A stretch of 64,000 bases of DNA from Natrinema sp. DC36 (lineage in GTDB: Archaea; Halobacteriota; Halobacteria; Halobacteriales; Natrialbaceae). The notes beneath the pieces are model-generated. The model searched no databases. It saw nothing but the letters and a program-made list of their open reading frames with translations, and was not told the DNA's origin. This document shows positions 29,458 to 55,475 of the stretch, in pieces (positions within the stretch are counted from its first letter, which is position 1; each line of letters starts with the position of its first letter). The translations under genes were made by a program, and so were the position numbers. Where the stretch lies: assembly GCF_020405225.1 (NCBI RefSeq), contig NZ_CP084472.1:3410001-3474000 (forward strand), in the 5' to 3' direction.

Positions 29458-31167
29458 GTGGTTCGCGTGAATACAACAGAACAATACAAACAGAACAAAC
29501 ACCCGCTCGACGTTATCGACGATGTCTACGACTACGCCGACGAGGAGCTTTCCTTCGAGGAGATCGAGGAGCGCGCCGGCGGCGGCGAGTGGGAGCGCCT
29601 GAAGTGGGCCGGTATGTACGCCCAGAAGCAGGAGGGCTACTTCATGATCCGGACGAAAGTGCCGGGCGGGAAGCTCACGCCCGAGCAGGCCGAAGTGATC
29701 GGCGAGGTCACCGAGGACCTCGCGGTCGCCCCCGAGGAGTACGGCGGCGAGGAGCAGAACGAACTCTGGGGAGATGCCTATCTCGACATCACGACCCGTC
29801 AAGACATCCAGAAACACTGGATCCGCGTCGAGGATGTCCCCGAGATGTGGGACCGCTACGACGAGGTCGGCCTGACGACGGTTCAGGGCTGCGGTGACTC
29901 CGCCCGGAACGTTCTCGGGTGTCCCGCGGCCGGACTCGACGATCACGAGTGCTTCAACGCACAGCCGGTCATCGATGCCGTTTCGGACTTCTTCACCGAG
30001 AACCGCGAGTACGCCAACCTCCCGCGGAAGTTCAAGATCACGATCACCGGCTGCGCCCACGACTGCGCGCAGTCCCAGATCAACGACGTCGGCCTCGTCC
30101 CCGCGAAGAAGGAGATCGACGGCGAACACCTCTACGGCTTCCACGCGCGCGTCGGCGGCGGCCTCTCCGACGGTCCCCGGATGGGATCCGAACTCGACGT
30201 CTTCATCGAGCCCGAAGACGCCGTCGAGTTCTGCCGCGCCGTCGCCCAGACGTTCAAGGAGATCGGCGACCGGAACAACCGCGGCGTCTGCCGCATGCGA
30301 TACCTCGTCGAACAGCTCGGTCCCGAGAAGTTCGAGGAGGCCGTCCGAGACCGCTGTACGATCGACCTGCCGACCGGTGGCCAGAACCTGACCGTCGGCT
30401 ATCAGGGCGACCACGTCGGGGTCCACGACCAGAAACAGGACGGGCTCAACTACGTCGGCTTCAACGTCATCGCCGGCCGGATGGGCGGCGACGAGTTCGC
30501 CGCTGCCGCCCGCGCCGCTGAAAAGTACGGGACCGAGGACGCCTCCGTGCGCCTCGCGACCGACCAGAACTTCCTCGTCACGCACATCCCCGACGAGAAC
30601 GTCGACGACCTGCTCGCGGAGCCGTTCGCACAGGAGTACAGCCCCGATCCGGGGCCGTTCTCCCGCGGAGCAGTCGGCTGTACGGGTAACGAGTTCTGTA
30701 ACTACGCCATCATCGAGACGAAAAAGCGCACCAAGCGCTGGGCCCGCGAACTCGACGAGCGTATCGACGTTCCCGACGACATCGAGGCCATCCGGATGCA
30801 CATGTCCGGCTGTTCCGCCTCGTGCGCCCAGCCCCAGATCGCAGACATCGGCTTCCGCGGCGAGACGGTCAAACTCGAGGACGAGAACAGTACCAACGCC
30901 GAGGGCGACAACATCGTCGAAGGGATGGACTTCGGACTCGGCGGCTCGCTGGGAGCCGACAACGAGTTCCTGGATTGGGTCGAGAGCGCCGTGCCCGCCG
31001 ACTCCGTGATTCCGGCCCTCGAGCAGCTGTTCGAGGCCTACTCCGCGGATCGCGCCGACGGCGAGAAGTTCTACGAGTGGTGTCGCGGCGTCGACAACGA
31101 GCAGCTCCGGACGATCATGCAAGGGGCGGACGCGCCGGTTGCACGAGGTGTTGCCCATGGGGACTGA
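29458..31167 (+). CDS. nirA: Siroheme nitrite/sulfite reductase
   Basis: A 569-residue assimilatory reductase with a siroheme and a 4Fe-4S cluster, reducing nitrite to ammonia or sulfite to sulfide by six electrons. The fold is the usual tandem ferrodoxin-like (NIR_SIR_ferr) half plus 4Fe-4S half, repeated. Cluster ligands are GCTGNEFCN and SGCSASCAQ in the C-terminal half; the related TGCAHDCAQ lies in the N-terminal half. The GTG at 29458 and a GTG at 29467 are both possible starts. It overlaps an FrhB-like F420 protein by 11 bases. Nitrite is the commoner annotation, but no nitrate reductase or nitrate transporter is nearby, so sulfite cannot be excluded. Confidence 0.88.
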   Translation: MVRVNTTEQYKQNKHPLDVIDDVYDYADEELSFEEIEERAGGGEWERLKWAGMYAQKQEGYFMIRTKVPGGKLTPEQAEVIGEVTEDLAVAPEEYGGEEQNELWGDAYLDITTRQDIQKHWIRVEDVPEMWDRYDEVGLTTVQGCGDSARNVLGCPAAGLDDHECFNAQPVIDAVSDFFTENREYANLPRKFKITITGCAHDCAQSQINDVGLVPAKKEIDGEHLYGFHARVGGGLSDGPRMGSELDVFIEPEDAVEFCRAVAQTFKEIGDRNNRGVCRMRYLVEQLGPEKFEEAVRDRCTIDLPTGGQNLTVGYQGDHVGVHDQKQDGLNYVGFNVIAGRMGGDEFAAAARAAEKYGTEDASVRLATDQNFLVTHIPDENVDDLLAEPFAQEYSPDPGPFSRGAVGCTGNEFCNYAIIETKKRTKRWARELDERIDVPDDIEAIRMHMSGCSASCAQPQIADIGFRGETVKLEDENSTNAEGDNIVEGMDFGLGGSLGADNEFLDWVESAVPADSVIPALEQLFEAYSADRADGEKFYEWCRGVDNEQLRTIMQGADAPVARGVAHGD

Positions 31168-32779
31168 CGAGGGAGACGAGCACCGATTCCCACACGTTCC
31201 CGACTCGAGTGACGATGACGACGCCGTCATGGTCCCTGAAGCCGACGGCGGCGCGTCCCGTTCCCGAGAGAACACGGATCACGCTCGAGAGGGCGCGATT
31301 CGCACCGATGGCGGTAGTGGTGCCGACAACGCGAGTGGCGAGAGCTGTTCTCCGAACACCTGCACCTGCGGCGAGAAGACCGGTGCCGACGCCGATACCG
31401 AGTCCGAGACGCCGCCCGTCGCGACTGACGGTGCGGGCGTCGCCAACGTCGACGAGATGGGCGAACTCGGCGACCTCGAGTTCACCGAGCCGGCCGAGAA
31501 CGTCAGTCAGGACGTCGACAACGGCTCGCCCGACGCGCGCGTCGGGATTCCCGAGGGCGTCGACCTCGAGACCCCGGAGTACTCGATCCGCTCGCGGATG
31601 AACGACATCGAGACGCCGGACGAAAAGACCTGGTTCATGGAACTGGACGAGGCCGTCATCGACGAGGGCCGCTGTATCCAGTGTGGAACCTGCGTCGCCG
31701 CCTGCCCATCGGACTCGATCGGGATCGGCGACGACGGCCATCCGGAACTGGTCAAGATGTGTACCGGCTGTTCGTTGTGTTGGGACTTCTGCCCCCGCGG
31801 CGGCCTGCGCTACGAGCGCCAGTGGAAGATCACCGGCGGCGACGATAACGTCAAGGGCGCGGGCGACCCGATCACGGAGTTCTCCGCGAAGGTCGAGGAC
31901 GACTGGACCGATCAGGCCCAGGACGGCGGCGTCGTCACCGGTATCCTCGCGACGCTGCTCGAGGAGGGCGAGATCGATGGCGCGCTCGTCGCCACCGAGA
32001 GCGAAGAAGAAGAGTGGAAGGCCGAGAGCTACCTCGCGACGACGACCGAGGAGCTCATCGAGAACGCCGGCACCGTCTACAATCAGACGATGGCGCTGGG
32101 CAATCTCGACCTCGATCAGTGGGAGCACAAGCTTCCCGACAAGTCCTGGGACGACCTCAGCATCGCGATCGTCGGCACGCCGTGTGAGATCGAGGGCATT
32201 CGCGCCCTGCAGGACTTCGAGTGGGACTACCAGGCCCAGAACGAGGGCATCCGCGCGGTCGACTACACGATCGCGCTGATGTGTACGAAGAACTTCAACT
32301 ACCACAGCCTCATGGGCGAGCAGCTGGAGGAGCAACGGGGCATCTCGCCGTCCGAGATCGGCAAGATGGACGTCCTCAACGGCAAGATGATGGTCTACGA
32401 CCACGAGGGCGAGATGATCGTCGAGGAGGACATCGAGAACTTCCACGACGCCGCCCTCAAGGGCTGCGACGAGTGTGCCGACTTCACCGGCTTCTGTTCG
32501 GACATCACCGTCGGCTCCGTCGGCTCGAGCGACGAGTACTCGAGCGTCATCGTCCGCACCGAGCAGGGGATGAAGGCGTGGGAGCTCACCGAGCCGAACC
32601 TGGACTACCACGACCTCGAGGACAAGTCCGCGGTCGGCAAGCTCCAGGGCTGGGACAAGAAGAAGGCCTTCGAGAGCCTCGAGCGTCCCTTCGACCCCGA
32701 CGCCCCGCGGTTCATCGAGTACACCGATCACGCCGAGAACTACGGCACGGCGCTCAACCCCCACGACCAGGGTCACTGA
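31157..32779 (+). CDS. Ferredoxin-FrhB-type F420 dehydrogenase subunit
   Basis: A 540-residue protein. After an acidic, low-complexity N-terminus of about 140 residues, which contains a CSPNTCTC cysteine cluster, come two 4Fe-4S motifs: CIQCGTCVAACP from about residue 172 and CTGCSLCWDFCP about 32 residues later. The rest is the FrhB/FdhB F420-binding domain with GTPCEIEGIRAL, ALMCTKNFNY and CDECADFTGFCSD. Such proteins pass electrons from reduced F420 to Fe-S partners. The ATG at 31157 overlaps the reductase stop by 11 bases; a TTG at 31139 is less likely. The pairing suggests F420H2 is the electron donor for the siroheme reductase. Confidence 0.85.
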   Translation: MGTDEGDEHRFPHVPDSSDDDDAVMVPEADGGASRSRENTDHAREGAIRTDGGSGADNASGESCSPNTCTCGEKTGADADTESETPPVATDGAGVANVDEMGELGDLEFTEPAENVSQDVDNGSPDARVGIPEGVDLETPEYSIRSRMNDIETPDEKTWFMELDEAVIDEGRCIQCGTCVAACPSDSIGIGDDGHPELVKMCTGCSLCWDFCPRGGLRYERQWKITGGDDNVKGAGDPITEFSAKVEDDWTDQAQDGGVVTGILATLLEEGEIDGALVATESEEEEWKAESYLATTTEELIENAGTVYNQTMALGNLDLDQWEHKLPDKSWDDLSIAIVGTPCEIEGIRALQDFEWDYQAQNEGIRAVDYTIALMCTKNFNYHSLMGEQLEEQRGISPSEIGKMDVLNGKMMVYDHEGEMIVEEDIENFHDAALKGCDECADFTGFCSDITVGSVGSSDEYSSVIVRTEQGMKAWELTEPNLDYHDLEDKSAVGKLQGWDKKKAFESLERPFDPDAPRFIEYTDHAENYGTALNPHDQGH

Positions 32780-39664: not shown

Positions 39665-40507
39665 TTACGCCGGCGGGGAGTCCCACGTCTCGCCGTTGTC
39701 CTGGGGCTCGTAGTCGATCGTCTCCCGGGCGTTTTCGATGCTGTACCAGCGGCGATCGTTATCGCTGACGCCGCTGAAGATTTCGAAGCCGGGGTCGTCG
39801 GTTTGGAGACAGCAATCCATCATGTGCGCGAAGTCCCGGCGGGACTGCCACATGGCTTTCATCCGTGCGACCTGCTGTTCGTACTGGTCGCTTCCGCGTT
39901 CGCATTCGCCGTCGTCGACGTCGTGTTCGGCGTCACCGTAGGGATGGTCGTACTCGGGCATCCGCACGCTACAGATCCGGATCGCGTGGGCTCGTTTCGG
40001 GTACTCGTAGTTCTCGACGTAGTACCGACAGAGGTCTTCGCCGAAACTCTTCGAAACGCCGTAGTACGAGTCCGGTCGGACCGGATCCTCGTGGGAGAGC
40101 TGGAAGGGTGCCTCGGATCCGAAGTAGAGTTCGGGGGCGTTCTCGGACTCGTACATGCCCATCACGTGATTCGAGGAGGCGAACACGACCGTCTCGAGTT
40201 CCGCAGTCCGTGCGGCCTCGAGGGCGTTTAGTACCCCGATGACGTTGGGCTGGTGGACGTCGTTCCACGTGCCGTCGGTGAAGGGATAGCCCGCGAGGTG
40301 GATCATCGCGTCTTGATCGGCGGCCGCGCTCCGAACGGCGGTCGCATCGGCGACGTCGCCGACGACGGTTTCGTACTCCCCGTATTCGTCCCCGTCGTCC
40401 GGATCGTTCCGGTCGAGATAGGTGAAGTCGTAGTCGGGGTCGTCGTGAAGGTGGTCGATGATGGCGGTTCCACACCGTCCGTACGCACCAGTCAGTAGGA
40501 CGTTCAC
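39665..40507 (-). CDS. NAD-dependent uronate dehydrogenase-like protein
   Basis: A 280-residue short-chain epimerase/dehydratase-fold protein. It has the nucleotide motif TGAYGRCG at the N-terminus, the catalytic YGVSK with Tyr and Lys, and the blocks HLAGYP, ASSNHVMGMY and AIRICSVRMPEY. This set resembles uronate dehydrogenase (Udh) and the haloarchaeal Azf glucose-6-phosphate dehydrogenase, which share ancestry. With GH105, a cycloisomerase-like and a KdgD-like gene near, oxidation of D-galacturonate to galactarolactone is the likeliest role. The GTG at 40507 is chosen because a TATATTA-like box lies at 40531-40537; the longer start at 40549 would lie upstream of it. Confidence 0.78.
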   Translation of the reverse strand: MNVLLTGAYGRCGTAIIDHLHDDPDYDFTYLDRNDPDDGDEYGEYETVVGDVADATAVRSAAADQDAMIHLAGYPFTDGTWNDVHQPNVIGVLNALEAARTAELETVVFASSNHVMGMYESENAPELYFGSEAPFQLSHEDPVRPDSYYGVSKSFGEDLCRYYVENYEYPKRAHAIRICSVRMPEYDHPYGDAEHDVDDGECERGSDQYEQQVARMKAMWQSRRDFAHMMDCCLQTDDPGFEIFSGVSDNDRRWYSIENARETIDYEPQDNGETWDSPPA

Positions 40508-40607
40508 AGGTGTTGGGTCTGCCGCGTGTGATATAATAGTTCGGATCACGCACCCGGATCCGGGGCCGCGACCGTGGTCTCCGAGGAAGTCCAGTGACTG
40601 GTCGACG

Positions 40608-41684
40608 TTACTGACCGTCAGTAAACTGCGACGCGGCCAGCAGGAAAAAGCCCTGTCCGTACGACGTCGACGTCAGCGGTGCGCCAGGACCGCCCGGCGG
40701 CCCGGCGACGCGGCGGACGGCCCCCTCGTCGTCGACGAGACCGATCGCGACGTCCATCGCGTCCCGCGCCGCCCGCTCGTACTTCTCGTCTTCGATGATG
40801 CCCAGCTCCAGGGCGCGCTCGAACGCGTAGGTGTACATGAGCGTCCCCGAACTCTCGAGGGGGGTGTGGGGATCGTCGACGATGTTGTACCACATACCGC
40901 TGTCGTCCTGTCGCTCCACGACCGCCGAGGCGACGTCCCGGAAGATTTCGACGAGTTCCTCGCGATCGGGATGGTCGTCGGGGAGGAACTCGAGAACGTC
41001 GACGATCGCCGCCTGTATCCAGCCGTTGCCGCGGGCCCAGAAGGTGCTCTGGGGGTAGCTGTTCGGCTGTTCGTGCCAGATGTGTCGGAACAGTCCCGTG
41101 TGCGGATCCTGGAGGTGTTTCGCGTGAACGATGAGTTGTCTGGCGGCCTCGTCGACGGCCTCGGGCTCGTCTGCGGCCGCCCCGTACCGGGCGAAGAACG
41201 GACACATCATGTAGACCGAGTCGATCCACAGCCCCTTCACGCCGGACAGCTCCGGGACGTGATGGGGGATACCGCCGTCTTCGGTCCGCTCGACCGACTG
41301 GAGGTTCTCGTACTCGCCGCGGGCGGCCTCGAGGTAGCGTTCGTCGCCGGTCCGTCGATAGAACTCGAGGACGCCGTGGCCGATCGAGGTCGTGTTGTTC
41401 GTGTTCATCGCCTTCCGCTCGTCGATCTCCCAGTGAGCGTCGTACTCCTTACCGTGTTGAAAGACCTCGATCGGATAGCTCGGCCCGTAGGAGAGCTGGC
41501 CGTTGCTGTCCTGGGTCTCGACCGAACGATCGACGAGCGCCCGTGCTGCCTCGAGACAGTCGTCGCGGTCGGTGGCGAGTAGCCCGTTTATCGCGACACC
41601 TTTCTGCCAGACCTCGTTTTCCATGTCCGTATCGATCGTATACGATGCGACGGCTGCGATCGCCTCGTCGAGGGACTGCGTCAT
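40608..41684 (-). CDS. GH105 unsaturated rhamnogalacturonyl/glucuronyl hydrolase
   Basis: A 358-residue (alpha/alpha)6-barrel hydrolase, GH105 (YteR/YesR type). It hydrates the double bond that polysaccharide lyases leave on the terminal uronic acid, releasing 5-keto-4-deoxyuronate and a rhamnose-ended sugar. The catalytic Asp is in GLWIDSVYMMCPFFARYG, and FWARGNGW is the second signature. No signal peptide, so it acts on imported oligosaccharides. The ATG at 41684 is chosen from family length and the TATA-like ATTTATC at 41717-41723. Ulvan oligosaccharides are an alternative substrate, but no sulfatase is in the window. Confidence 0.9.
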   Translation of the reverse strand: MTQSLDEAIAAVASYTIDTDMENEVWQKGVAINGLLATDRDDCLEAARALVDRSVETQDSNGQLSYGPSYPIEVFQHGKEYDAHWEIDERKAMNTNNTTSIGHGVLEFYRRTGDERYLEAARGEYENLQSVERTEDGGIPHHVPELSGVKGLWIDSVYMMCPFFARYGAAADEPEAVDEAARQLIVHAKHLQDPHTGLFRHIWHEQPNSYPQSTFWARGNGWIQAAIVDVLEFLPDDHPDREELVEIFRDVASAVVERQDDSGMWYNIVDDPHTPLESSGTLMYTYAFERALELGIIEDEKYERAARDAMDVAIGLVDDEGAVRRVAGPPGGPGAPLTSTSYGQGFFLLAASQFTDGQ

Positions 41685-41812
41685 AGTGACGATAGCTAAC
41701 TCTCCGCGGGATCGCTGATAAATCTTGCTGACGGGACGAACGCGGCGATACTCGGCACCGATCGTCCGGCTACCCGACACCGAATCGCAGCGAGAGATCG
41801 AATGACGATACG

Positions 41813-41818
41813 TTTATC
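41813..41818 (+). promoter_or_regulatory. TATA box of the KdgD-like gene
   Basis: TTTATC 25-30 bases before the ATG at 41843. The divergent GH105 gene has its own box 100 bases away, so this 158-base region is a two-way promoter. Confidence 0.65.
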
Positions 41819-41842
41819 ACTCAGCTATCCGATCTCGGATCT

Positions 41843-42772
41843 ATGGCGTCCGAGAAGCTACAGGACGGACTGCGAAGCGTCGCTGCCGGACTGTTGACAC
41901 CGTTCGACGACGATGGCGAAATCGACCACGAGAAACTGACCGCAAACGCCGAGGCACTCTCGAGCGACGGGCTCAGTACGTTCCTCGCGTGTGCGAACAT
42001 CAGCGAGTATCACTCGCTGTCCCATCAGGAGCGTATCGACGTCACCGAGACCAGTGTGTCGGCGCTGCCCGACGACGCGTGCGTCCTCGCCGGGGTCGGC
42101 GGGAGTACGAAGACCGCACGCGACCTCATCGCCGCCTACGACGAGATCGGCGTCGACGCGATGATGATCATGCCGCCGGACCACACCTACGTCCACGAAC
42201 GGGGGCTCCTCGAGTACTACGAGGCCCTCGCGAACGCGGCCGAGGTCGGCATCGTCCCGTACGTCCGCGGCTTCGAGCCGTCCGTGTCGTTCCTCGCGTC
42301 GCTGACCGAGATCGAGGGCGTGGCCGGAATCAAGTACGCCATCCCGGACGCGGTCAAGCTCGGGCAGGCGGTCGCGGCCGGCGACGACGACGTCGTCTGG
42401 GTAGACGGCATGGCCGAACCGCACGCGCTGTCGTTCTGGGTCCAGGGGGTCGAGGGGTTCACCGCCGGCGTGACGAACTTCGAACCGCGTCTCGGGCAGG
42501 CGTTGCTAACGGCGTTACGCGACGAAGACTGGGTGCGCGCTCGAGCCCTTCAGAACGCGGCCGTCCCGTACCAGCAGTTCCGTAACGGAACGGGCGAGGA
42601 CAATACGCTCGCGGACGCGATCAGCGTCCCGGCCGTCAAGTACGGGCTCGAGCTCGCGGGCTACAACGGCGGCGCCGTCCGCGAGCCGATCGTCGGTCTG
42701 TCGGCGGCCGACCAGCAGCGGGCCGAAACGCTCTACGAGGAACTCCAGTCCGATCTCGACCGTCTTCTCTGA
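41843..42772 (+). CDS. DapA-superfamily dehydratase/aldolase (KdgD-like)
   Basis: A 309-residue class I aldolase-superfamily protein. The Schiff-base Lys is in GVAGIKYAIPD and the catalytic Tyr in IVPYVRGFEPS, whose Tyr-x-Arg pattern recalls 5-dehydro-4-deoxyglucarate dehydratase (KdgD) rather than dihydrodipicolinate synthase. KdgD turns the galactarate-derived keto-acid into 2-oxoglutarate semialdehyde and CO2, which fits the galacturonate genes around it. Alternatives are a 2-keto-3-deoxy sugar-acid aldolase. Leaderless promoter. Not lysine biosynthesis: no lysine genes are near. Confidence 0.75.
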   Translation: MASEKLQDGLRSVAAGLLTPFDDDGEIDHEKLTANAEALSSDGLSTFLACANISEYHSLSHQERIDVTETSVSALPDDACVLAGVGGSTKTARDLIAAYDEIGVDAMMIMPPDHTYVHERGLLEYYEALANAAEVGIVPYVRGFEPSVSFLASLTEIEGVAGIKYAIPDAVKLGQAVAAGDDDVVWVDGMAEPHALSFWVQGVEGFTAGVTNFEPRLGQALLTALRDEDWVRARALQNAAVPYQQFRNGTGEDNTLADAISVPAVKYGLELAGYNGGAVREPIVGLSAADQQRAETLYEELQSDLDRLL

Positions 42773-43289: not shown

Positions 43290-43595
43290 TTAGATCATCC
43301 GGTACACTTCGTCCATCCACTGATCCGAGTCGTCGTCGACGGTGATCCCCTCCATCTCCTCGGCCCAGCGGGCCTGCGCGTCGCTCTCGTCCATTACTTC
43401 TTGGATCGCATCCGGGTCCTCGAGTTCCAGGAACCCGAAAACGTGCCCGTCGGATTCGAAGACGCTGTAGGTCTCGAGCCCGGCGTCGGACTCGAGGTAG
43501 GCGTCCTCGAGCCACTGTGGAACGTTCTCGTGGGCCTCGCGATACGCTTCGCGCTGTCCGTCCGCTATTTCGAGGTGGAACGCAATGCGTGCCAT
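43290..43595 (-). CDS. rhaM: L-rhamnose mutarotase
   Basis: A 101-residue dimeric alpha/beta-barrel protein that interconverts the alpha and beta anomers of L-rhamnose. The RIAFHLEIADGQREAYREAH start (with the Tyr and His of the active site), the YSVFESDGHVFGFLE strand and RWAEEMEGI are diagnostic. The ATG at 43595 has CTATAG/ATAGCTATAG at 43621-43630 as promoter. Its presence is the clearest marker that the locus handles free L-rhamnose. Confidence 0.92.
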   Translation of the reverse strand: MARIAFHLEIADGQREAYREAHENVPQWLEDAYLESDAGLETYSVFESDGHVFGFLELEDPDAIQEVMDESDAQARWAEEMEGITVDDDSDQWMDEVYRMI

Positions 43596-43656: not shown

Positions 43657-44802
43657 TCACTCGAGCCGGTAGCGGTCGACGGCCGACTCGTCGACCTCGA
43701 TACCGAGGCCGGGGTCCTGTGGCACGGCGAGTTCACCGCCGGTCGGATCGAACGGCGACTCGAGCAGGTCGTTTCGAAGCGGGTTCTCGCTGCGATCGAA
43801 CTCGAAGAGGACGGGATCGGGCTCCATCCCCTCGGCGTGGGGATACGTCGATAGGCTCGCGGCGAACTGCAGCGCGGCCGCGGTCCTGACCGCGCTGTTC
43901 CAGACGTGCGGTCGGACGACCGCGTTCGCCGTCGTCGCCAGCGTCGCGAGGAACCGCGCCTCGGCGAAGCCGCCACAGCGTCCGAGATTGGGCTGGACGA
44001 CGTCGATCAGTCCGTCCTCCAGCAGCCGCGCGAACTCGAACCGACCGTAGTGGGCTTCGCCGGCCGCGAGGGGCGCGTCGACGCGCTCCCCGATCTTGCG
44101 GTAGCCCCCGTAGTTCTCTGGCGGGACCGGCTCTTCGACCCACGTCAGGTCGTAGGGCTCGAGTTCGCGGATCGACGCGATCGCCCCTCGCGGCGTGTAG
44201 TTGCCGTTGAAATCGACCATCAGGTGCGCGTCGTCGCCGAGGATCTCGCGGGCGATCTCGACGCGCCGACGGTCGTCCTCGCGGCCGCCGCCGATCTTGA
44301 TCTTCGCCGCGGTGAACCCCTCCGCGACGGCCGCTTCCATGGGGTCGGCCGGGTCCTCTCCCCACTCGGTGAGGTACATCGTCGACGCGTAGGGAACGAC
44401 TGACTCGACCCGACGGCCGCCGAGCAGTTCGTGGATCGGCTTTCCGACCGCCTTGCCCCGAAGGTCCCACATCGCGACCTCGATCCCCGAGAGCGCGGAC
44501 TGTGCGAGCGCCTCGCGGGCGGCGTGGTAGCCGCCGATGTCGCCGGTGTAGACGCGATCGGCCAGGGATTCGGCCGCGACCGGGGAACTCCCGAGCACGG
44601 CGTCGGCGAACTCGTCCTCGATCAACGCCGCGACCGCCCGCGGCGAGGCGAAGGCTTCGCCCCAGCCGACCGTCCCGTCGGCCGTCTCGAGCCGAACGAG
44701 CGTCGCCGATCGCGACTCGGTCATCCCGCGCGAGCCGCCGAACGCGCGGCCCGCTTCTAGCTCGTGTGACAGCGGAATCGCTGTGACATCGGTGATCTCC
44801 AT
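43657..44802 (-). CDS. Enolase-superfamily dehydratase, galactarolactone cycloisomerase-like
   Basis: A 381-residue mandelate-racemase/muconate-lactonizing family protein. Catalytic and metal residues are visible: AKIKIGG (Lys-x-Lys), LMVDFNGNY, WVEEPV, AAGEAHYG and RPHVWNS. The C-terminal run CGGFAEARFLATLA and PHVW...AALQFAAS closely recalls bacterial D-galactarolactone cycloisomerase (Gci). Gci opens and dehydrates galactarolactone to the keto-acid used by KdgD. A sugar-acid dehydratase of another specificity is the alternative. Probably co-transcribed with the LLM oxidoreductase upstream (125-base gap). Confidence 0.8.
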   Translation of the reverse strand: MEITDVTAIPLSHELEAGRAFGGSRGMTESRSATLVRLETADGTVGWGEAFASPRAVAALIEDEFADAVLGSSPVAAESLADRVYTGDIGGYHAAREALAQSALSGIEVAMWDLRGKAVGKPIHELLGGRRVESVVPYASTMYLTEWGEDPADPMEAAVAEGFTAAKIKIGGGREDDRRRVEIAREILGDDAHLMVDFNGNYTPRGAIASIRELEPYDLTWVEEPVPPENYGGYRKIGERVDAPLAAGEAHYGRFEFARLLEDGLIDVVQPNLGRCGGFAEARFLATLATTANAVVRPHVWNSAVRTAAALQFAASLSTYPHAEGMEPDPVLFEFDRSENPLRNDLLESPFDPTGGELAVPQDPGLGIEVDESAVDRYRLE

Positions 44803-44927: not shown

Positions 44928-45959
44928 CTACCGGAACTGCGGTGCGACTTCGTCGGCGAACAGTTCCATACCGCCGGTGTCGGGGAAGTCGACGAACCAA
45001 CACTGAAACTTCGTGACGCCGGCGTCGATCCGCCGCTCGATCGCCTCGGCGCACTCCTCGGGCGTTCCCATGATGAAGTAGTCGCGAGCGATCTCCTCGG
45101 TCGTGATGTCGGCCTGATCGACGTATTCCTCCTCGAACTGGATCGGGATCATCAGCTCGAGCAGGCGCTCGTATTTCTCGGGGTCGCGCGTACAGATGAC
45201 GTGGCCGTCCCAGGAGTACTCGATCTCGTCGGGATCGCGGCCGACCGTCTCGCAGTGGTCCTCGATGACGCCGATCTTGTGTTCGAGGGTCTCCGGCGTC
45301 CCGTTGAACACGTCCGTGTTCCAGATGTCGGCGTGTTTCGCGACGAGTTTCAGCGTCACGTCTTCGCCCTGCCCGCCGACGAGGATCGGCGGGTGCGGGT
45401 CCTGAACCGGTCCGGGCTCGCAGTGCGCGCCGTCGATCTCGTAGCGCTCGCCAGCGAACGAGGCGGCCTCGCCGGGTTCGGTGGCCCACAGTTCCTTCAT
45501 GAGCCGGATACCCTCGTCCAACCGCATCAGCCGCTCGAAGCCGTCGCGGTACTCCCAGCCGTAGGCCTCGTACTCGGGCTCGTGCCAGCCGGCACCGAGC
45601 CCGAGCTCGAGGCGACCGTCGGAGATCACGTCGAGCGTCGCGGCCATCTTCGCGACGAGCGCGGGGTTGCGGTAGTCGTTACACAGCACGAGCGATCCGA
45701 GGTCGATGTCGTCGGTGAGGCCCGCCAGTGCGGACAGCAGCGTCCAGCACTCGTACTCGGCGTGATCCCGGCCGAGCATGAGGTGGTCCGGTGCCCACGC
45801 GGCGTCGAAGCCGAGTTCCTCGGCTTTCAGAACGCCCTCCTTCGTCGTCTCCCAGTCGAGTCGCTCGTAACACGGCGTGTCGCGGTGGACGGGATCGGTT
45901 CCCGACTCCGGCGCGCCCGCGAACACCGGGACGTTGTATTCGAACGTGATGTCGCTCAT
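44928..45959 (-). CDS. F420-dependent LLM-class oxidoreductase, substrate unknown
   Basis: A 343-residue luciferase-like (LLM) TIM-barrel protein. The start FEYNVPVFAG, GFDAAWAPDHLML, LDVISDGRLELGLGAGWHEPEY and PPILVGGQGED are typical of the F420-binding branch. That branch includes F420-dependent glucose-6-phosphate and alcohol dehydrogenases, as well as reductases. It sits 3 bases downstream of the rhamnonate dehydratase and upstream of the cycloisomerase gene, so it is co-transcribed with catabolic enzymes. Since no SDR-type L-rhamnose dehydrogenase is in the window, oxidation of the sugar itself is a possible role, but this is inference. Confidence 0.85.
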   Translation of the reverse strand: MSDITFEYNVPVFAGAPESGTDPVHRDTPCYERLDWETTKEGVLKAEELGFDAAWAPDHLMLGRDHAEYECWTLLSALAGLTDDIDLGSLVLCNDYRNPALVAKMAATLDVISDGRLELGLGAGWHEPEYEAYGWEYRDGFERLMRLDEGIRLMKELWATEPGEAASFAGERYEIDGAHCEPGPVQDPHPPILVGGQGEDVTLKLVAKHADIWNTDVFNGTPETLEHKIGVIEDHCETVGRDPDEIEYSWDGHVICTRDPEKYERLLELMIPIQFEEEYVDQADITTEEIARDYFIMGTPEECAEAIERRIDAGVTKFQCWFVDFPDTGGMELFADEVAPQFR

Positions 45960-45962
45960 GGA

Positions 45963-47168
45963 TCACTCCACGCTGTAGTGCTCGAGGGCCTCGGGGTTGG
46001 TCGCCGAACTCAGCCCGACGGTGTCGGGCAGGGGGATGGTCCCGTTCTCAGCGTTCGGCGGGTTGGCGTAGATGGCGTCGGCGTAGGTCGACTCCTGTTC
46101 TCCCTGGCGCTCCTGATACCACTCGGGGATCGGGAAGTACTCCGCCATCGGCGCGTTGGTCGAGGCGGCGATGAAGTGCAGGGTCGGGTTCGTCCCGGAG
46201 TGGGGGATCACCGGCACGTCGCGAGCGCTCGCCATGGCGTCGATCCGCTGGAGTTCCGTCAGGCCGCCACAGCGGTGGATGTCGGGCTGGAGGATGTCGA
46301 CGGCCTCGCGCTCGAGCAGTTCTTTGTGGCCCCAGCGGGTAAACTCGTGTTCGCCGCCGGAGATGGGAACGTTCGACGCCTCGCGGACCTCCGCGTAGCC
46401 GTCGATGTCGTCGGGGATGACCGGCTCCTCGACCCACTCCATGTCGTAGCGCTCGAGGCGCTTGAGCATCTTCTTGGCGTATCGAACGTTCCAGCCCATG
46501 TACGCGTCGCCGGCGATCGCGATCTCGTCGCCGACGGCGTCGCGAACCGTCTCGACGATCTTCTCGTTTTCTTTCATGCCCTGCCGACCCGCTTCCGGGC
46601 CGTACCGGAACCGCAGCTTCATCGCGTCGAAGCCCTGCTCAGCGTAGTTCTGCGCCTCGCGCGCGAGCGTCTCGTGATCGAGCGGGTGGAGGTTGCTCGC
46701 GTAACAGGGGATGTCGTCCGTGACCGGGCCGCCCAGCAGTTCGTAAACCGGCTTCTCGGCTTCCTTGCCGGCGATATCCCAGAGCGCGAGGTCGATAGCG
46801 CTGATGGCCTCGATCGCCGCGCCCTTCCGACCGAAGGGGATCGTCGCCCGGTACATCATGTCCCACAGTCGTTCGCGCTGGTGGGGGTCCTCGCCGACGA
46901 CGAGCTTCGAGAGCGTCTCGTTGACGATCGTCTCGATCGAGCCCGTCGCCCAGTTGCCGACGCCGATGCCGGTGATACCCGCGTCGGTCTCGACCTCCAC
47001 GACGACGTCGCCGACCGGCCCCATCCACTTCCGACGGGCCTCCGGGTTGTCGCCGTCGGCGTTGTTGTACTCGTCGAACTTGCTCATAACGGTGACGAGC
47101 GGGAACTCGACGAACTCGCCCCAGGAATCGGTACTGACCTTCGTGACGGTAATATTCGTTATCTCCAT
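45963..47168 (-). CDS. L-rhamnonate dehydratase-like enolase-superfamily enzyme
   Basis: A 401-residue enolase-superfamily protein that should dehydrate L-rhamnonate to 2-keto-3-deoxy-L-rhamnonate. Metal ligands lie in GDAYMGWN, WVEEPV and SGGEHEFTRWG, and the catalytic His in IPHSGTNPTLH. The long N-terminal segment, MKLRFRYGP in place of the usual Lys-x-Lys, DILQPDIHRCGGLTE and NAPMAEYFP follow the RhamD subgroup pattern. The ATG at 47168 is chosen over 47222, since TATAAA lies at 47228-47233 on the minus strand and leaves a leader of about 37 bases. Divergent from the zinc dehydrogenase. Confidence 0.85.
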   Translation of the reverse strand: MEITNITVTKVSTDSWGEFVEFPLVTVMSKFDEYNNADGDNPEARRKWMGPVGDVVVEVETDAGITGIGVGNWATGSIETIVNETLSKLVVGEDPHQRERLWDMMYRATIPFGRKGAAIEAISAIDLALWDIAGKEAEKPVYELLGGPVTDDIPCYASNLHPLDHETLAREAQNYAEQGFDAMKLRFRYGPEAGRQGMKENEKIVETVRDAVGDEIAIAGDAYMGWNVRYAKKMLKRLERYDMEWVEEPVIPDDIDGYAEVREASNVPISGGEHEFTRWGHKELLEREAVDILQPDIHRCGGLTELQRIDAMASARDVPVIPHSGTNPTLHFIAASTNAPMAEYFPIPEWYQERQGEQESTYADAIYANPPNAENGTIPLPDTVGLSSATNPEALEHYSVE

Positions 47169-47441: not shown

Positions 47442-48473
47442 ATGAAGGCTATAGTACATACCGGTCCCAGATCTATCGAGATTCGCGAACGTGAGAAGCC
47501 AGTTCCCGACGTCGACGAGGTGCTCGTTCGCGTTCACTCGGCGGGGCTGTGCGGCAGCGACGCGCACGCGTACACCTACGAAGACGGCTACAAGTGGATC
47601 CCGATCCCGCGGATTATGGGCCACGAGTACTCCGGCGAGGTCGTCGCGGTTGGCGACGACGTCACCGACTTCGCGGTCGGCGACCACGTCGTCGAGGAGC
47701 CGATCCACGACTGCGGCTCGTGTTTCCAGTGCAAGAACGGACAGCCCAACGTCTGCCAGAACTTCGAGATCACCGGCATGCACAACGACGGCGCGTACAC
47801 CGAGTATACGACGGTTCGAACGCGAGATCTACACCTGATTCCGGACGACGTCCCGCTCGGACACGCGAGCATCACCGAACCGCTCAGTATCGCGACGCGC
47901 GCGGTGTTCGACCAGTCCACTGTGACGCCCGGCGACACCGTCCTCGTCGAAGGGCCCGGCCCGATCGGCGTCCTCGTCGCGGCCGTCGCGGACTCGATGG
48001 GCGCGAACGTTGTCGTCTCCGGCCTGGGCAAAGACACCGAGTATCGGCTCCCGCTCGTCGAACGGCTCGGGATCGAGACCGTCGACATCGAGACGACCGA
48101 CCTCTCGGACGTCGTCGACGCCCGAACCGACGGCATCGGCTTCGACGTGGTGTTCGATACGACCGGCCACTCCAGTGGCGTCGAGATGGCCATCGACAAC
48201 GTCCGCAAGGGCGGGCAGGTCGCCGTCGTCGGCCTCCCCGGCTCGCCCAGCGAAGTGTTCATGACGCCGGTCGTCCGCGGCGAGGTCGACGTGAATACCT
48301 CCTACGGCTCGACGTGGAAGAACTTCGAACAGGCCATCCGACTCCTCTCGGCCGGCGCGATCGACGCCGACGCGATCATCGACCGCTCGTTCAGCGTCGA
48401 CGACCCGACCGCCGCGTTCGAGGCGTTCCTCGAGTCGGAGACCTGCAAGCCGGTCTTCTCGTTTTCCGAGTGA
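47442..48473 (+). CDS. Zinc-dependent medium-chain dehydrogenase
   Basis: A 343-residue MDR alcohol/polyol dehydrogenase. The catalytic zinc site is in GLCGSDAH and MGHEYSGEV; the structural zinc Cys are in CGSCFQCKNGQPNVC. The nucleotide fold begins VLVEGPGPIGVLVA. In this setting it may oxidise 2-keto-3-deoxy-L-rhamnonate at C4, or L-rhamnose at C1. It is divergent from the rhamnonate dehydratase gene with a palindromic operator in front. The exact substrate cannot be read from sequence. Confidence 0.88.
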   Translation: MKAIVHTGPRSIEIREREKPVPDVDEVLVRVHSAGLCGSDAHAYTYEDGYKWIPIPRIMGHEYSGEVVAVGDDVTDFAVGDHVVEEPIHDCGSCFQCKNGQPNVCQNFEITGMHNDGAYTEYTTVRTRDLHLIPDDVPLGHASITEPLSIATRAVFDQSTVTPGDTVLVEGPGPIGVLVAAVADSMGANVVVSGLGKDTEYRLPLVERLGIETVDIETTDLSDVVDARTDGIGFDVVFDTTGHSSGVEMAIDNVRKGGQVAVVGLPGSPSEVFMTPVVRGEVDVNTSYGSTWKNFEQAIRLLSAGAIDADAIIDRSFSVDDPTAAFEAFLESETCKPVFSFSE

Positions 48474-50947: not shown

Positions 50948-51817
50948 ATGGTGCTGGATACTCACACGCACGCGTGGACGCGGCCGACGCGAGACCAGCC
51001 GTGGGTCAACGGGCCGCTCGTTGAGACCGTCGACGAGTTCGACGTCGACACCGTTTACACCGCCGAGAAGCTCCTCGCGGACATGAACGACGTCGGCGTC
51101 GACGAGTCGATCGTCGTCGGCTACCCGATCTGCGAGTGGACCGACAACCGGTACACGGTCCGCTGCGTCGAGGAACACGACAGGCTCTCGGGGATCGTCA
51201 TGCTCGATCCGTTCGCCGACGGCGCGGCCGACCGGGTTCGCGAGGCGATGGCCGTCGACGGCGTGCTCGGGGTCCGCCTCGGGGCGATCTGTCCCTTCGA
51301 CCGGATGTGGGAGACGTTCGATCCCGACGCGGACTGGCTCCGCGAGTCGATCGACGAGACGGCGTTCTGGGCGGCCGCCCGCGAGACCGACGCGCTGGTA
51401 CAGGTGCTCGCCGACGTCGACCAGCTCGAGCAGGTGATCGACCTCGTCGAGACCTACCCTGATCTCTCCTACGCGCTCGATCACTTCTGTCACGCCGGCC
51501 CCGACGTCCCGCCCGAAGAAGCGCTCGCCGCGCTCGAGCCCCTCGCCGGCGATGAGTACGATGTCGCCGTGAAAATCTCCGAAGTCGTCCACCGCTCCGA
51601 GGAGGGGTACCCCTACTGCGATATGCACGGTCACGTCCGCTGGCTGCTCGAGACCTTCGGCCGCGAGCGGGTCGTCTGGGGGTCGGACTTTCCGAACGTC
51701 AGCGACGAGGCGAGCTACGAGAAGAGCCTGCGCTGGCTCGAGCACGTCGACTGCCTCTCGACGAACGACCGGAAGTGGCTCACCGGCCGCTCGATGCGGG
51801 AACTGTGCGGGATCTGA
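50948..51817 (+). CDS. Amidohydrolase-family lactonase, probable L-rhamnono-lactonase
   Basis: A 289-residue TIM-barrel metal hydrolase of the amidohydrolase-2 (COG3618) family, which includes fuconolactonase- and rhamnonolactonase-type enzymes. Metal and active-site motifs are LDTHTHAW at the N-terminus, YALDHFCHAG in the middle and VVWGSDFPN near the end. In the rhamnose route it would open L-rhamnono-lactone to L-rhamnonate. Alternatively it could open galactarolactone. Leaderless promoter; convergent with the FAA hydrolase gene. Confidence 0.83.
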   Translation: MVLDTHTHAWTRPTRDQPWVNGPLVETVDEFDVDTVYTAEKLLADMNDVGVDESIVVGYPICEWTDNRYTVRCVEEHDRLSGIVMLDPFADGAADRVREAMAVDGVLGVRLGAICPFDRMWETFDPDADWLRESIDETAFWAAARETDALVQVLADVDQLEQVIDLVETYPDLSYALDHFCHAGPDVPPEEALAALEPLAGDEYDVAVKISEVVHRSEEGYPYCDMHGHVRWLLETFGRERVVWGSDFPNVSDEASYEKSLRWLEHVDCLSTNDRKWLTGRSMRELCGI

Positions 51818-51820
51818 GCG

Positions 51821-52657
51821 CTACTCGTCCACGACGTGGTTCTCGAGCGTTCCGATACCCTCGACCTCGGCTTCGACCGTGTCGCCCGAGGAGAGCAGTT
51901 CCGGCGGGTCGCGGAAGATACCGACGCCGCCCGGCGTGCCGGTCGAGATAACGGTCCCCGGCTGCAGCGTCATTCTGTGACTGAGGTACTCGATGGCGTC
52001 GCCGACGTCGAAGATGAACTCCGCGGTCGAGGACGCCTGTTTCACCTCGCCGTTGACTCGGAGTTCGACGCCGACGTCGTTGGCGTCGATGTCCTCGGGC
52101 GCGGTCAGGGCCGGCCCCATCGGTGCGAACGTATCGTAGCTCTTGCCGCGGAAGAACTGGCCGTCCTCGAACTGGGCGTCGCGCGCGCTGACGTCGTTGA
52201 CGACCGTGTAGCCGGCGACGTACTCCTCGGCCTCGTCGGCCGACACCTCGCAGGCGGTCCGCCCGATGACGACGCCGAGTTCGACCTCGTAGTCGACCTG
52301 TTCGACGTCCTCGGGGTGGACGATCGGCGCGTCGGGATCGGTGACGCTCCCGGGCGACTTCGAGAAGAGCATCGGTTTGTCGGGGATCTCCTCGTCTTGC
52401 TCCTCGGCGTGGTCGTAGTAGTTCAATCCGATACAGATGATCTGCTCGACCGACGGGATCGGGGCCAGCCGGTCCTCGGGCTCGTCGATTTCCGGGAGTT
52501 CTCCCGTCTCGACGGCGCGGCGGACGCGGCGACGGTAGCCCGGCGTTGCGAGGTCTTCGATCGTCGGTTCTCCGAAACGGTCCAGCGCGTACGACTGGTC
52601 GTCGACGGTAACGCCCCAGCGGACGCCACCGCTGGTCGCGAATCGAACGAATTGCAT
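51821..52657 (-). CDS. Fumarylacetoacetate-hydrolase family protein, probable 2,4-diketo-3-deoxy-L-rhamnonate hydrolase
   Basis: A 278-residue FAH-fold hydrolase. The metal ligands are in VDYEVELGVVIG (Glu-x-Glu) and in VVNDVSARDAQF, with the active-site Lys in FFRGKSYDTFAPMGP. In the diketo-hydrolase pathway this enzyme splits 2,4-diketo-3-deoxy-L-rhamnonate into pyruvate and L-lactate. The ATG at 52657 is chosen from the conserved MQFVRFA start; the much longer open frame upstream is a shadow. It follows the lactate-oxidation genes (lutC, lutAB) in the same direction, 71 bases after them. Confidence 0.87.
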   Translation of the reverse strand: MQFVRFATSGGVRWGVTVDDQSYALDRFGEPTIEDLATPGYRRRVRRAVETGELPEIDEPEDRLAPIPSVEQIICIGLNYYDHAEEQDEEIPDKPMLFSKSPGSVTDPDAPIVHPEDVEQVDYEVELGVVIGRTACEVSADEAEEYVAGYTVVNDVSARDAQFEDGQFFRGKSYDTFAPMGPALTAPEDIDANDVGVELRVNGEVKQASSTAEFIFDVGDAIEYLSHRMTLQPGTVISTGTPGGVGIFRDPPELLSSGDTVEAEVEGIGTLENHVVDE

Positions 52658-52728: not shown

Positions 52729-54954
52729 TTACTCGGACTCCTCCGGTGCGACGAGCGAGATCGGATGGCGCGGCCGACGGGCGAGGAGCCCGTCCAGTTG
52801 CTCGAGACACGACGTCCCGCTCGCGACGACCGTTCGATCGGCGGCGTCGGGTGCCTCGAACTGTTCCCTGAGCCGGTCCCCGACGTCCACGCTCAGTTCG
52901 TAGTACTCGCTCTTGTAGCCGAAGCTCCCCGCCATGCCACAGCACTCGACGTCGGAGGTGAGGACGTCGTATCCCAGCCGTTCGAGGACGTCCGTCGTGT
53001 AGGCCTCGAGCTCGAGCGTGCGCTGCTGGCAGTGAGAGTGGTAGGCGAGGGCCGAGCCGACGCCGCGGCCGTCGTCGGCGTCTCGCAGCGACGCGGGGTC
53101 GGCCCCGTTCTCGAGCAGGCCGTAGACGTACTCGAAGACCTCGTAGCTGCGCTCGGAGAGCGCCTCGTAGCGGTCCGTCTCGAGCAGCCGCTCGTACTCG
53201 CCGCGGAACATCGCGAGGTCGCTCGGTTCGATGGCGACGACGTCGTACCCCGCCTCGAGGTAGGGCCCGAGGTCGGCGACCACGTCGCGGGCGTGGTCTC
53301 CCGCGGTGGCGATCATTCCCTGCGAGAGGGGGGCGCGGCCCGACGACGCGACCTCGGGGACCTCGACCGCGACCCCCAGCGCCTCGAGCGTTCGGACGGT
53401 CGCCTTCCCGCGGTCGGTCCGAATGTAGTTCGTGTAGAGGTCCGGGTAGACGACGGCGTGGTAGTCGGCGTCGACGGGCCGGGGTTCGTCCCGGTTCCGG
53501 AACCACTCGACGAACGTCTCGCGCTCGAACCGGGGCAGGTCGCGGCGGCGGTCGACGCCGATGACCCGTTCCATGAGCGCTCTCGAGGGCAGCGTGTCCG
53601 CGACCCAGTTCGAGACGGGCGCGGTCGCGGACCCGAGTTTCGCCAGCGTCGAGAAGTTGCCGAAGAACCGCTTTTGCAGGTCGAGCCCCGCGGGCTCCTC
53701 GTCGGGGGTGAGCCCCTCGACCAGGAAGTCGAGCTCTCCGTCTTCGGCCCCGCGATTGCGCCGATCCCGGACGACCGTGTTGATCCACGGGATGTCGATC
53801 TTCACCGGACACTGGTTGACACACCGCGAGCAGCCGGTACAGAGGTCGTTGAATTCGTCGGCCGATTCCTGGCCGTGGACGCCGGCCTCCCAGCCGGTGG
53901 CGATCCCGCCCGAGTAGGTCTCGCCGCCGAAGACGTGGCCGCCGACGGACTGGAAGTTCGCACACGAGTTCGCACAGGCCGAACACCGGATGCAGTACAG
54001 CGTCTCCCGGAGCTGATCGTCGTCGCGCATGTCCATTCGACCGTTATCGAGCAAGACGAGGTGGAAGTCCCGGTCGGCCGGATCGTCGGCGATCGGCTCG
54101 TCGTCGTCGAAGTCGACCGGCGGCGTCGAGACCGGCGGCGAAAAGAGAGAGACGTAGGAGGTGATGTCCTGTCCCGTCCCCGAGCGCGCGATCAGTTCGA
54201 CGAACGGCTGGAGGTCCTCGAACGTCGGAACGATCTTCTCGACGCCCGCCACCGCGACGTGCGTGTCGGGCACGGCGACGGTCTTGCGGGCGTTGCCCTC
54301 GCTCGTGACGAGCGCCATCGTCCCCGTGTCCGCCGTCACGAAGTTCGCGCCGGTGACGCCGATATCCGCGTCCTCGATCCGTTCCCCGAGGTACTCCCGC
54401 GCGAACGCGGTCAGCTCCTCGGCCGTCTCGAGCTCCGCCTCGGGCTCGAAGTACTCGTTGAACAGGGTGGCGATCTCCTCGCGCGACTGGTGGATCGCCG
54501 GCGCGACGAGGTGACTGGGCGCTTCGTCGGCCACCTGCAGGACGAACTCGCCGAGGTCGGTCTCCCAGACGTCACAGCCCTCGGCCTCCAGGTGCTCGTT
54601 GAGGTCGATCTCCTCGGTCGTCATCGATTTCGACTTGACGACGGTTTCGGCCGCCCGCTCGCGGGCGAGTTCGCGGACGTACCGGTTCGCGTCGGCCGCG
54701 TCGTCGGCGACGTAGACGGTTCCGCCGTTTTCCTCGACCGCCTCGCGCACCTGCTCGATCAGCTCGGGGAGGCGTTCGATCGCGTCCTCCTTGATCGCCC
54801 GCGCTCGGTCCTTGTACGCGTCGTAGTCCTCGAGTCGGGCGACGGACTCGTATCGTCCCTCGTTGAACCCGCGGGCGTTGCGCTCGACGCTGTCGCCCTC
54901 CGTTTCCATGACGTGTCGGATCCGATCGGCTTTCCGGGATCGTTCGCTGGCCAT
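52729..54954 (-). CDS. Fused LutB-LutA lactate oxidation iron-sulfur protein
   Basis: A 741-residue fusion. The first 300 residues are a LUD domain (LutB/LldF type). Two 4Fe-4S motifs follow, CIRCSACANSCANF and CTGCSRCVNQCPVKID, near residues 320 and 385. The C-terminal 250 residues carry a LutA/LldE-like CCG region with VECCGMAGSFG and HSHCQQRTL. In bacteria lutA, lutB and lutC are separate genes. With LutC (next gene upstream, 1-base overlap) it should oxidise L-lactate to pyruvate. This fits disposal of the L-lactate made by the FAA hydrolase. Confidence 0.88.
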   Translation of the reverse strand: MASERSRKADRIRHVMETEGDSVERNARGFNEGRYESVARLEDYDAYKDRARAIKEDAIERLPELIEQVREAVEENGGTVYVADDAADANRYVRELARERAAETVVKSKSMTTEEIDLNEHLEAEGCDVWETDLGEFVLQVADEAPSHLVAPAIHQSREEIATLFNEYFEPEAELETAEELTAFAREYLGERIEDADIGVTGANFVTADTGTMALVTSEGNARKTVAVPDTHVAVAGVEKIVPTFEDLQPFVELIARSGTGQDITSYVSLFSPPVSTPPVDFDDDEPIADDPADRDFHLVLLDNGRMDMRDDDQLRETLYCIRCSACANSCANFQSVGGHVFGGETYSGGIATGWEAGVHGQESADEFNDLCTGCSRCVNQCPVKIDIPWINTVVRDRRNRGAEDGELDFLVEGLTPDEEPAGLDLQKRFFGNFSTLAKLGSATAPVSNWVADTLPSRALMERVIGVDRRRDLPRFERETFVEWFRNRDEPRPVDADYHAVVYPDLYTNYIRTDRGKATVRTLEALGVAVEVPEVASSGRAPLSQGMIATAGDHARDVVADLGPYLEAGYDVVAIEPSDLAMFRGEYERLLETDRYEALSERSYEVFEYVYGLLENGADPASLRDADDGRGVGSALAYHSHCQQRTLELEAYTTDVLERLGYDVLTSDVECCGMAGSFGYKSEYYELSVDVGDRLREQFEAPDAADRTVVASGTSCLEQLDGLLARRPRHPISLVAPEESE

Positions 54955-55475
54955 TATGCCTCCACGATGACCGCGTGGGTCTCTCGCGGGCCGTGGACGC
55001 CGTAGACGAGTTCGCCCATGTCGGCGGTCGCGCTCGGGCCGGTCGCGATCACGGCGTCGTCGCTCCCGGCGCGGAACCGCTCGCCTAGCCGCTCGAACGC
55101 CGACGCCATATCGGGGACGAGATCCCGCTCGCGGACGACGATCACGTGGCGGTCGGGGAAGAGACCGGCGAGTTCGGCACCCGCCGGCGTCGACTCGAGG
55201 ACGACCGAGCCGTAGTCGGCGACGCCGAGCGCGGCGGCCGTCACGCCGCAGGCCGCCTCGCGGAGCTGGTCGGGCGTCGGCTCGAGGACGATGTCCAGCC
55301 CCTCGAGCGTCACCTCCTCGAAGGGGAGCGGCGCACCGACGGTGGGACGGTCGACGACGTCGGCGAGCGTTTCCTGAAACGCGGCCGGCGAGGTCCGAGT
55401 GACGGCGGTCCGGACGCTCTCGAGGTTCGTTTCGAACATCTCTAGCTGTGTCTCCATTGTGTGGTCGTCACTCAC
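54954..55475 (-). CDS. lutC: LutC-type LUD-domain protein
   Basis: A 173-residue LUD-domain protein, the third component of the Lut lactate-utilisation system. The ADYGSVVLEST block, the FPDRHVIVVRERDLVPDM block and the ATGPSATADMGELVYGVHGPRE end are typical. The stop overlaps the lutBA fusion start by one base. Start is GTG at 55475 or ATG at 55457; the evidence does not decide. A TTTTAGA box at 55553-55559 could be the promoter. Confidence 0.88.
   Translation of the reverse strand: MSDDHTMETQLEMFETNLESVRTAVTRTSPAAFQETLADVVDRPTVGAPLPFEEVTLEGLDIVLEPTPDQLREAACGVTAAALGVADYGSVVLESTPAGAELAGLFPDRHVIVVRERDLVPDMASAFERLGERFRAGSDDAVIATGPSATADMGELVYGVHGPRETHAVIVEA

Follow-up and report, generated by a model that had tools for sequence, protein, structure and literature searches.

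A luciferase-like (LLM) oxidoreductase of 343 aa, encoded at 44928..45959 on the minus strand of the window (the whole stretch of 64,000 nucleotides analyzed here), is paired with L-rhamnonate dehydratase (RhcD) in all 50 haloarchaeal genomes in which we found it. That the rhcD-LLM pair is unbroken, in a pathway considered complete, is the robust new point, and operon membership together with conservation establishes LLM as a core enzyme of the haloarchaeal rhc cluster. We tentatively regard an F420-dependent L-rhamnose 1-dehydrogenase as the single most likely function of LLM; its cofactor, substrate and direction of reaction are what we infer.

RhcD, a member of the enolase superfamily (45963..47168, minus strand), lies upstream of LLM in the same operon. 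Its best NCBIfam match is L-rhamnonate dehydratase, below cut-off, and orthologs at 74-75% are annotated rhcD. The first-pass annotation had placed an LLM-class protein 3 bases from the rhamnonate dehydratase. This was confirmed by the PF00296 match of LLM and by the junction sequence TGA-TCC-ATG, in which the rhcD stop, 3 nt and the LLM start follow each other. We surveyed 391 haloarchaeal genomes, each at least 90% complete, for LLM orthologs, and 50 were LLM-positive. In all 50, which belong to six families, rhcD was directly upstream of LLM on the same strand, with the aligned ends 5-19 nt apart. The LLM orthologs were 77-94% identical, and the adjacency kept at this identity is well past chance. 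A scan with an alignment of RhcD found 39 loci in named genomes, with H. volcanii not among the matches, and 36 of them held a full-length orthologous RhcD (L031-L065, L068). LLM (77-91% identity) was directly downstream in all 36, found independently of the LLM search. Two partial matches in Halocatena marina DFN5 (L067 and L069; 176 and 55 residues), with a full copy on the same contig, are probably gene fragments. The pair (44928..47168, minus strand) is thus invariant in 50/50 LLM-positive genomes and in 36/36 rhcD loci. Other rhc genes were found within 9.3 kb of LLM less constantly: RhcE in 43, RhcF in 36, RhcC in 30 and RhaM in 29 of the 50 genomes. No partner is bound as closely to the dehydratase as LLM, which is therefore no passenger. 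In the alignment of the 50 orthologs, 169 of 343 residues were invariant. We found no pathway step assigned to LLM; a pathway treated as complete holds an unassigned enzyme that is tied to the dehydratase more tightly than the other rhc genes are.

The remaining rhc genes of the window surround the pair. L-rhamnose mutarotase (RhaM, PF05336) is at 43290..43595 on the minus strand, the L-rhamnonolactonase RhcC (amidohydrolase family) at 50948..51817 on the plus strand, and the 2,4-diketo-3-deoxy-L-rhamnonate hydrolase RhcF (FAA hydrolase family; NF053535 best match, below cut-off; start estimated from orthologs) at 51821..52657 on the minus strand. LUD/LutBC-type L-lactate utilization genes for the L-lactate product follow at 52729..55475 on the minus strand, with the role taken from PMC8305020. 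A second enolase-superfamily dehydratase, galactonate-dehydratase-like (43657..44802, minus strand), is not conserved with the rhcD-LLM pair. Beside the rhc genes, the interval 39665-42772 holds an extended, uronate-dehydrogenase-like SDR (39665..40501, minus strand), a GH88/GH105-type unsaturated rhamnogalacturonyl hydrolase (40608..41690, minus strand), which presumably supplies rhamnose from pectin, and a DHDPS-family aldolase. These genes apparently form a pectin and galacturonate branch. The nearest solved structures of the extended SDR are uronate dehydrogenases, and it was rejected as a rhamnose dehydrogenase and presumably belongs to the galacturonate branch. In another genome, mycofactocin biosynthesis genes were seen near the rhc cluster (L011:20293-25029; Haloterrigena turkmenica plasmid pHTUR01).

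The zinc-dependent dehydrogenase encoded divergently at 47442..48473 (plus strand) had been named in the first-pass annotation as an alternative enzyme for the first oxidation. It is an ortholog of the 2-keto-3-deoxy-L-rhamnonate dehydrogenase RhcE (70% to genes annotated rhcE) and most probably acts in that later oxidation; as rhamnose dehydrogenase it was rejected as first choice. RhcE was present in 49/50 LLM-positive genomes. The second oxidation is thus covered almost everywhere, and the first has no universal SDR. Near-complete rhc clusters with no SDR among the recognized genes were found in several families and comprise RhaM, RhcC, LUD, ABC, RhcE, RhcD, LLM, RhcR and RhcF. The only conserved oxidoreductases in them are RhcE and LLM, and LLM is the sole unassigned one. 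With two oxidations in the pathway and two universal oxidoreductases, the first oxidation would fall to LLM, an argument by elimination. LLM could also be a second 2-keto-3-deoxy-L-rhamnonate dehydrogenase that doubles RhcE, which would explain its place beside the dehydratase, whose product is that very substrate, and seven loci had no RhcE nearby. However, six of those seven genomes have RhcE elsewhere, so that the slot is taken, and it is the first oxidation that is without a universal enzyme. We consider this doubling very unlikely.

A classical SDR (P0001 type), which from its context we take to be the known NAD(P) L-rhamnose dehydrogenase, lies within the rhc cluster in Haloferax, Haloarcula, Halorubrum and other loci. 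It was found in 20 of the 391 genomes, 19 of them LLM-positive (Fisher p 6e-18, not corrected for relatedness). In these 19 of the 50 LLM-positive genomes SDR and LLM occur together; the Haloferax loci seen are among them, with at most one exception. The P0001-type SDR was absent from the other 31, including all 17 of the host's family, and in 27 of these 31 there was no classical SDR within 9.3 kb of LLM. The earlier statement that no SDR is present holds for classical SDRs among the recognized rhc-region genes of the window and for orthologs of the linked SDR in the genome, where the best match had 36% identity; it does not hold for the extended SDR described above or for the genome as a whole, which encodes about 30 SDRs elsewhere. 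Those whose surroundings were read lay in unrelated contexts. No protein of the genome exceeded the cut-off for Lra1 (NF053807), the best reaching 199 of 400 bits.

SDRs of a second family (P0003 type, identity of 62% or more) occurred in 18 LLM-positive genomes, 16 of them without the P0001 type, and were near LLM in four. Several of their contexts include arabinofuranosidase, Gfo6 xylose dehydrogenase or GH43 genes, which suggests a sugar other than rhamnose; in one genome (G121) the SDR lies beside GH28 and GH78 genes. As a general replacement this family is improbable: it is missing from the host genome at this identity, and, G121 excepted, its contexts are mostly those of arabinan or other sugars. 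The family of P0003/H. turkmenica-type SDRs (L199:7276-8103 and relatives), mostly at arabinan or other sugar loci, may include an L-arabinose dehydrogenase. Neither SDR type was found in 15 of the 50 LLM-positive genomes, the host included. In one distant LLM-positive genome, 4 of 13 SDRs had clear counterparts among the compared SDRs of the host, and these are likely housekeeping enzymes; non-orthologous substitution is possible.

LLMs of genomes with and without the SDR interleave in one half of the LLM tree (deep branches weak), and no residue separates the two groups in the alignment of the 50 orthologs. A different function of LLM in the two groups was therefore rejected. It seems that the SDR was gained and lost while rhcD-LLM stayed, which fits an LLM that is redundant with the SDR as well as one that has a constant function of its own. 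In the latter case LLM would be a core rhc enzyme with another reaction, such as an accessory redox step on a rhamnose-derived or modified sugar or the repair of a by-product; L-rhamnose would then be oxidized by an SDR that is linked in Haloferax and Haloarcula and unlinked here. Such a role beside an SDR is possible and ranks close behind the F420-dependent rhamnose dehydrogenase. The coexistence in 19 genomes with the same LLM residues means that one function must fit both situations, and the two SDR families associated with LLM-positive genomes and the many SDRs of the host point the same way. However, no single SDR tracks the pathway, 15 genomes have neither family, the SDRs of the host whose surroundings were read stand in unrelated contexts, and the few shared with the distant genome look like housekeeping enzymes. 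We know of no further redox step in the rhamnose pathway for LLM. Knockouts of rhc genes in H. volcanii were reportedly described by Reinhardt in 2019. If the linked SDR is essential there, LLM is no replacement in that species.

LLM belongs to the LLM superfamily, as indicated by its Pfam score (PF00296, E 9.5e-54, 183.3 bits against a gathering cut-off of 27.9) and by the TIM-barrel fold of its AF2 model (pLDDT 86.9; VIA Z >30 against LLM structures). The host genome (5.1 Mb, haloarchaeal) encodes about 17 LLM paralogs. The best NCBIfam match of LLM is TIGR03560 (F420_Rv1855c), which it misses narrowly with 221.6 bits against a curated cut-off of 231.4; its paralogs P0004 and P0007 exceed this cut-off. 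Against TIGR03557, the Adf/FGD/FSD clade, it scored 82.3 bits, under the cut-off of 210.4. In a tree with reference sequences, LLM clustered with TIGR03560 members over cut-off, away from Adf, FGD and Mer. Adf, FGD and two TIGR03557 proteins of the host formed a supported group (98/96) from which LLM was excluded, and LLM was closer to FMN-dependent SsuD-like proteins than to Adf, FGD or Mer. These two host proteins (L008 and L009), of the F420 glucose-6-phosphate/alcohol dehydrogenase clade, scored about 390 bits each.

The alignment places D58-H59 of LLM at D38-H39 of Adf and at the Asp-His of FGD, where the FMN SsuD-like enzymes have Glu-Leu. The active-site residues of FGD1 are H40, W44 and E109, with the phosphate ligands in the FGD insertion. 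In the LLM alignment the His is kept (H59), the Trp and Glu of FGD/Adf are missing, with L62 and W125 instead, and the FGD insertion carrying the phosphate-binding residues is absent, which fits a non-phosphorylated substrate. Choosing the cofactor by fold was rejected since F420 and FMN enzymes score about equally: Foldseek ranked FMN monooxygenases highest, and VIA-align put the F420-dependent Mer first, with ties (Z 34.3 for Mer, 33.1 for SfnG, 32.9 for Adf and 32.1 for FGD1). The host genome encodes CofD for F420 biosynthesis and two Fno (F420:NADP oxidoreductase) proteins above cut-off, and among the cluster genes with annotations we saw no flavin reductase. F420 is the likely, predicted cofactor of LLM. 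That it is instead an FMN-dependent sugar oxidase or monooxygenase, and no F420 hydride transferase, would agree with its place in the tree, the top Foldseek matches and the missed TIGR03560 cut-off. This is improbable, however, given the Asp-His motif shared with F420 enzymes, the F420-assigned subfamily as best match, Mer at the head of the tied VIA-align scores, the lack of a flavin reductase among those genes, and the F420 and Fno genes.

An HRDTP loop, N-terminal and after strand 1, was found in 50/50 LLM orthologs. The paralog LLM2 (45-48% identity) has it as well. It was found in none of the other LLMs tested where the region was available; this region lay outside the PDB segments used. 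In Haloarcula and Haladaptatus, LLM2 is encoded in a second sugar cluster together with a mutarotase, an SMP-30 lactonase, an ABC transporter and an SDR. The loop and this cluster suggest a sugar-acting LLM subfamily. The repeated pairing of SDR and LLM weakens the simple idea of SDR replacement and favors another reaction of LLM beside an SDR. The LLM2 clusters are at L016:23776-28311, L076:5395-12101 and L080:20368-25644; HRDTP was checked in L016 and L076, and an aldo/keto reductase is present in Haloarcula. We put forward, with some reserve, that HRDTP marks a sugar-oxidizing subfamily in which LLM would be an F420 aldose 1-dehydrogenase specific for unphosphorylated L-rhamnose, feeding F420 and replacing or doubling the SDR step.

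Under the preferred reading, LLM would move a hydride from C1 of L-rhamnopyranose onto F420, and L-rhamnonolactone and F420H2 would be the products. RhcC would open the lactone, RhcD would dehydrate the acid, RhcE would oxidize the ketodeoxy acid, and RhcF would cleave the product to pyruvate and L-lactate, which the LUD proteins would oxidize. F420H2 could be re-oxidized by Fno or by F420H2-using reductases. The free F420 potential is -340 mV, and FSDs are weakly active on free sugars at 400 mM (PMC6279831), so that aldose oxidation with F420 is feasible. The earlier proposal that LLM is the missing rhamnose dehydrogenase is partly supported, by its fold, the Asp-His motif, CofD and Fno, the invariant rhcD linkage, its standing as the only unassigned universal oxidoreductase and the absence of an rhc-linked SDR here. 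Against it stand its place outside the Adf/FGD/Mer clade, the loss of the active-site Glu and Trp, the linked SDR that coexists with it in Haloferax, Haloarcula and others (19 genomes), and the roughly 30 unlinked SDRs of the host. The F420-type reductase at 29458-32779, to which the first-pass annotation linked LLM, is real: a NIR_SIR nitrite/sulfite-reductase-like protein and a ferredoxin-FrhB protein, each with its own gene, divide between them the domains of F420-dependent sulfite reductase. We found nothing that connects it to LLM beyond both being F420-type genes.

Haloarchaea make F420, but PMC8305020 calls its purpose there enigmatic and reports one F420-dependent reaction. LLM, conserved at every haloarchaeal rhcD locus sampled, would be a concrete entry point to the role of F420 in these organisms. 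If it does oxidize free rhamnose with F420, it would extend the LLM dehydrogenases to a new class of substrate and would be useful for F420H2 production from a cheap sugar.

Among known systems, FGD and FSD share with LLM the TIM-barrel fold of the superfamily, the Asp-His motif and the proposed C1 oxidation of a pyranose with F420. They differ in subfamily, with about 23-25% identity, in having the phosphate-binding insertion, and in the Glu and Trp that are replaced in LLM. TIGR03560 is closer by best match and tree grouping, but LLM scores just below its cut-off and has the HRDTP loop, which is missing in the TIGR03560 protein of the host; we found no characterized member of this family. 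Lra1, the SDR-type L-rhamnose 1-dehydrogenase, has the same proposed reaction as LLM with an unrelated fold and cofactor. The diketo-hydrolase rhamnose pathway of Haloferax volcanii was reportedly described by Reinhardt in 2019, and the host resembles it in RhcC, RhcD, RhcE, RhcF, mutarotase and lactate utilization. The pathway (Reinhardt 2019) is cited in PMC8305020 and PMC11519228, and the former states that H. volcanii converts rhamnose to pyruvate and lactate and that it grows less well on rhamnose when the LudBC pair is deleted. Haloferax clusters differ from that of the host in their linked SDR, and the loci of other Haloferax species share with the host an LLM that adjoins rhcD.
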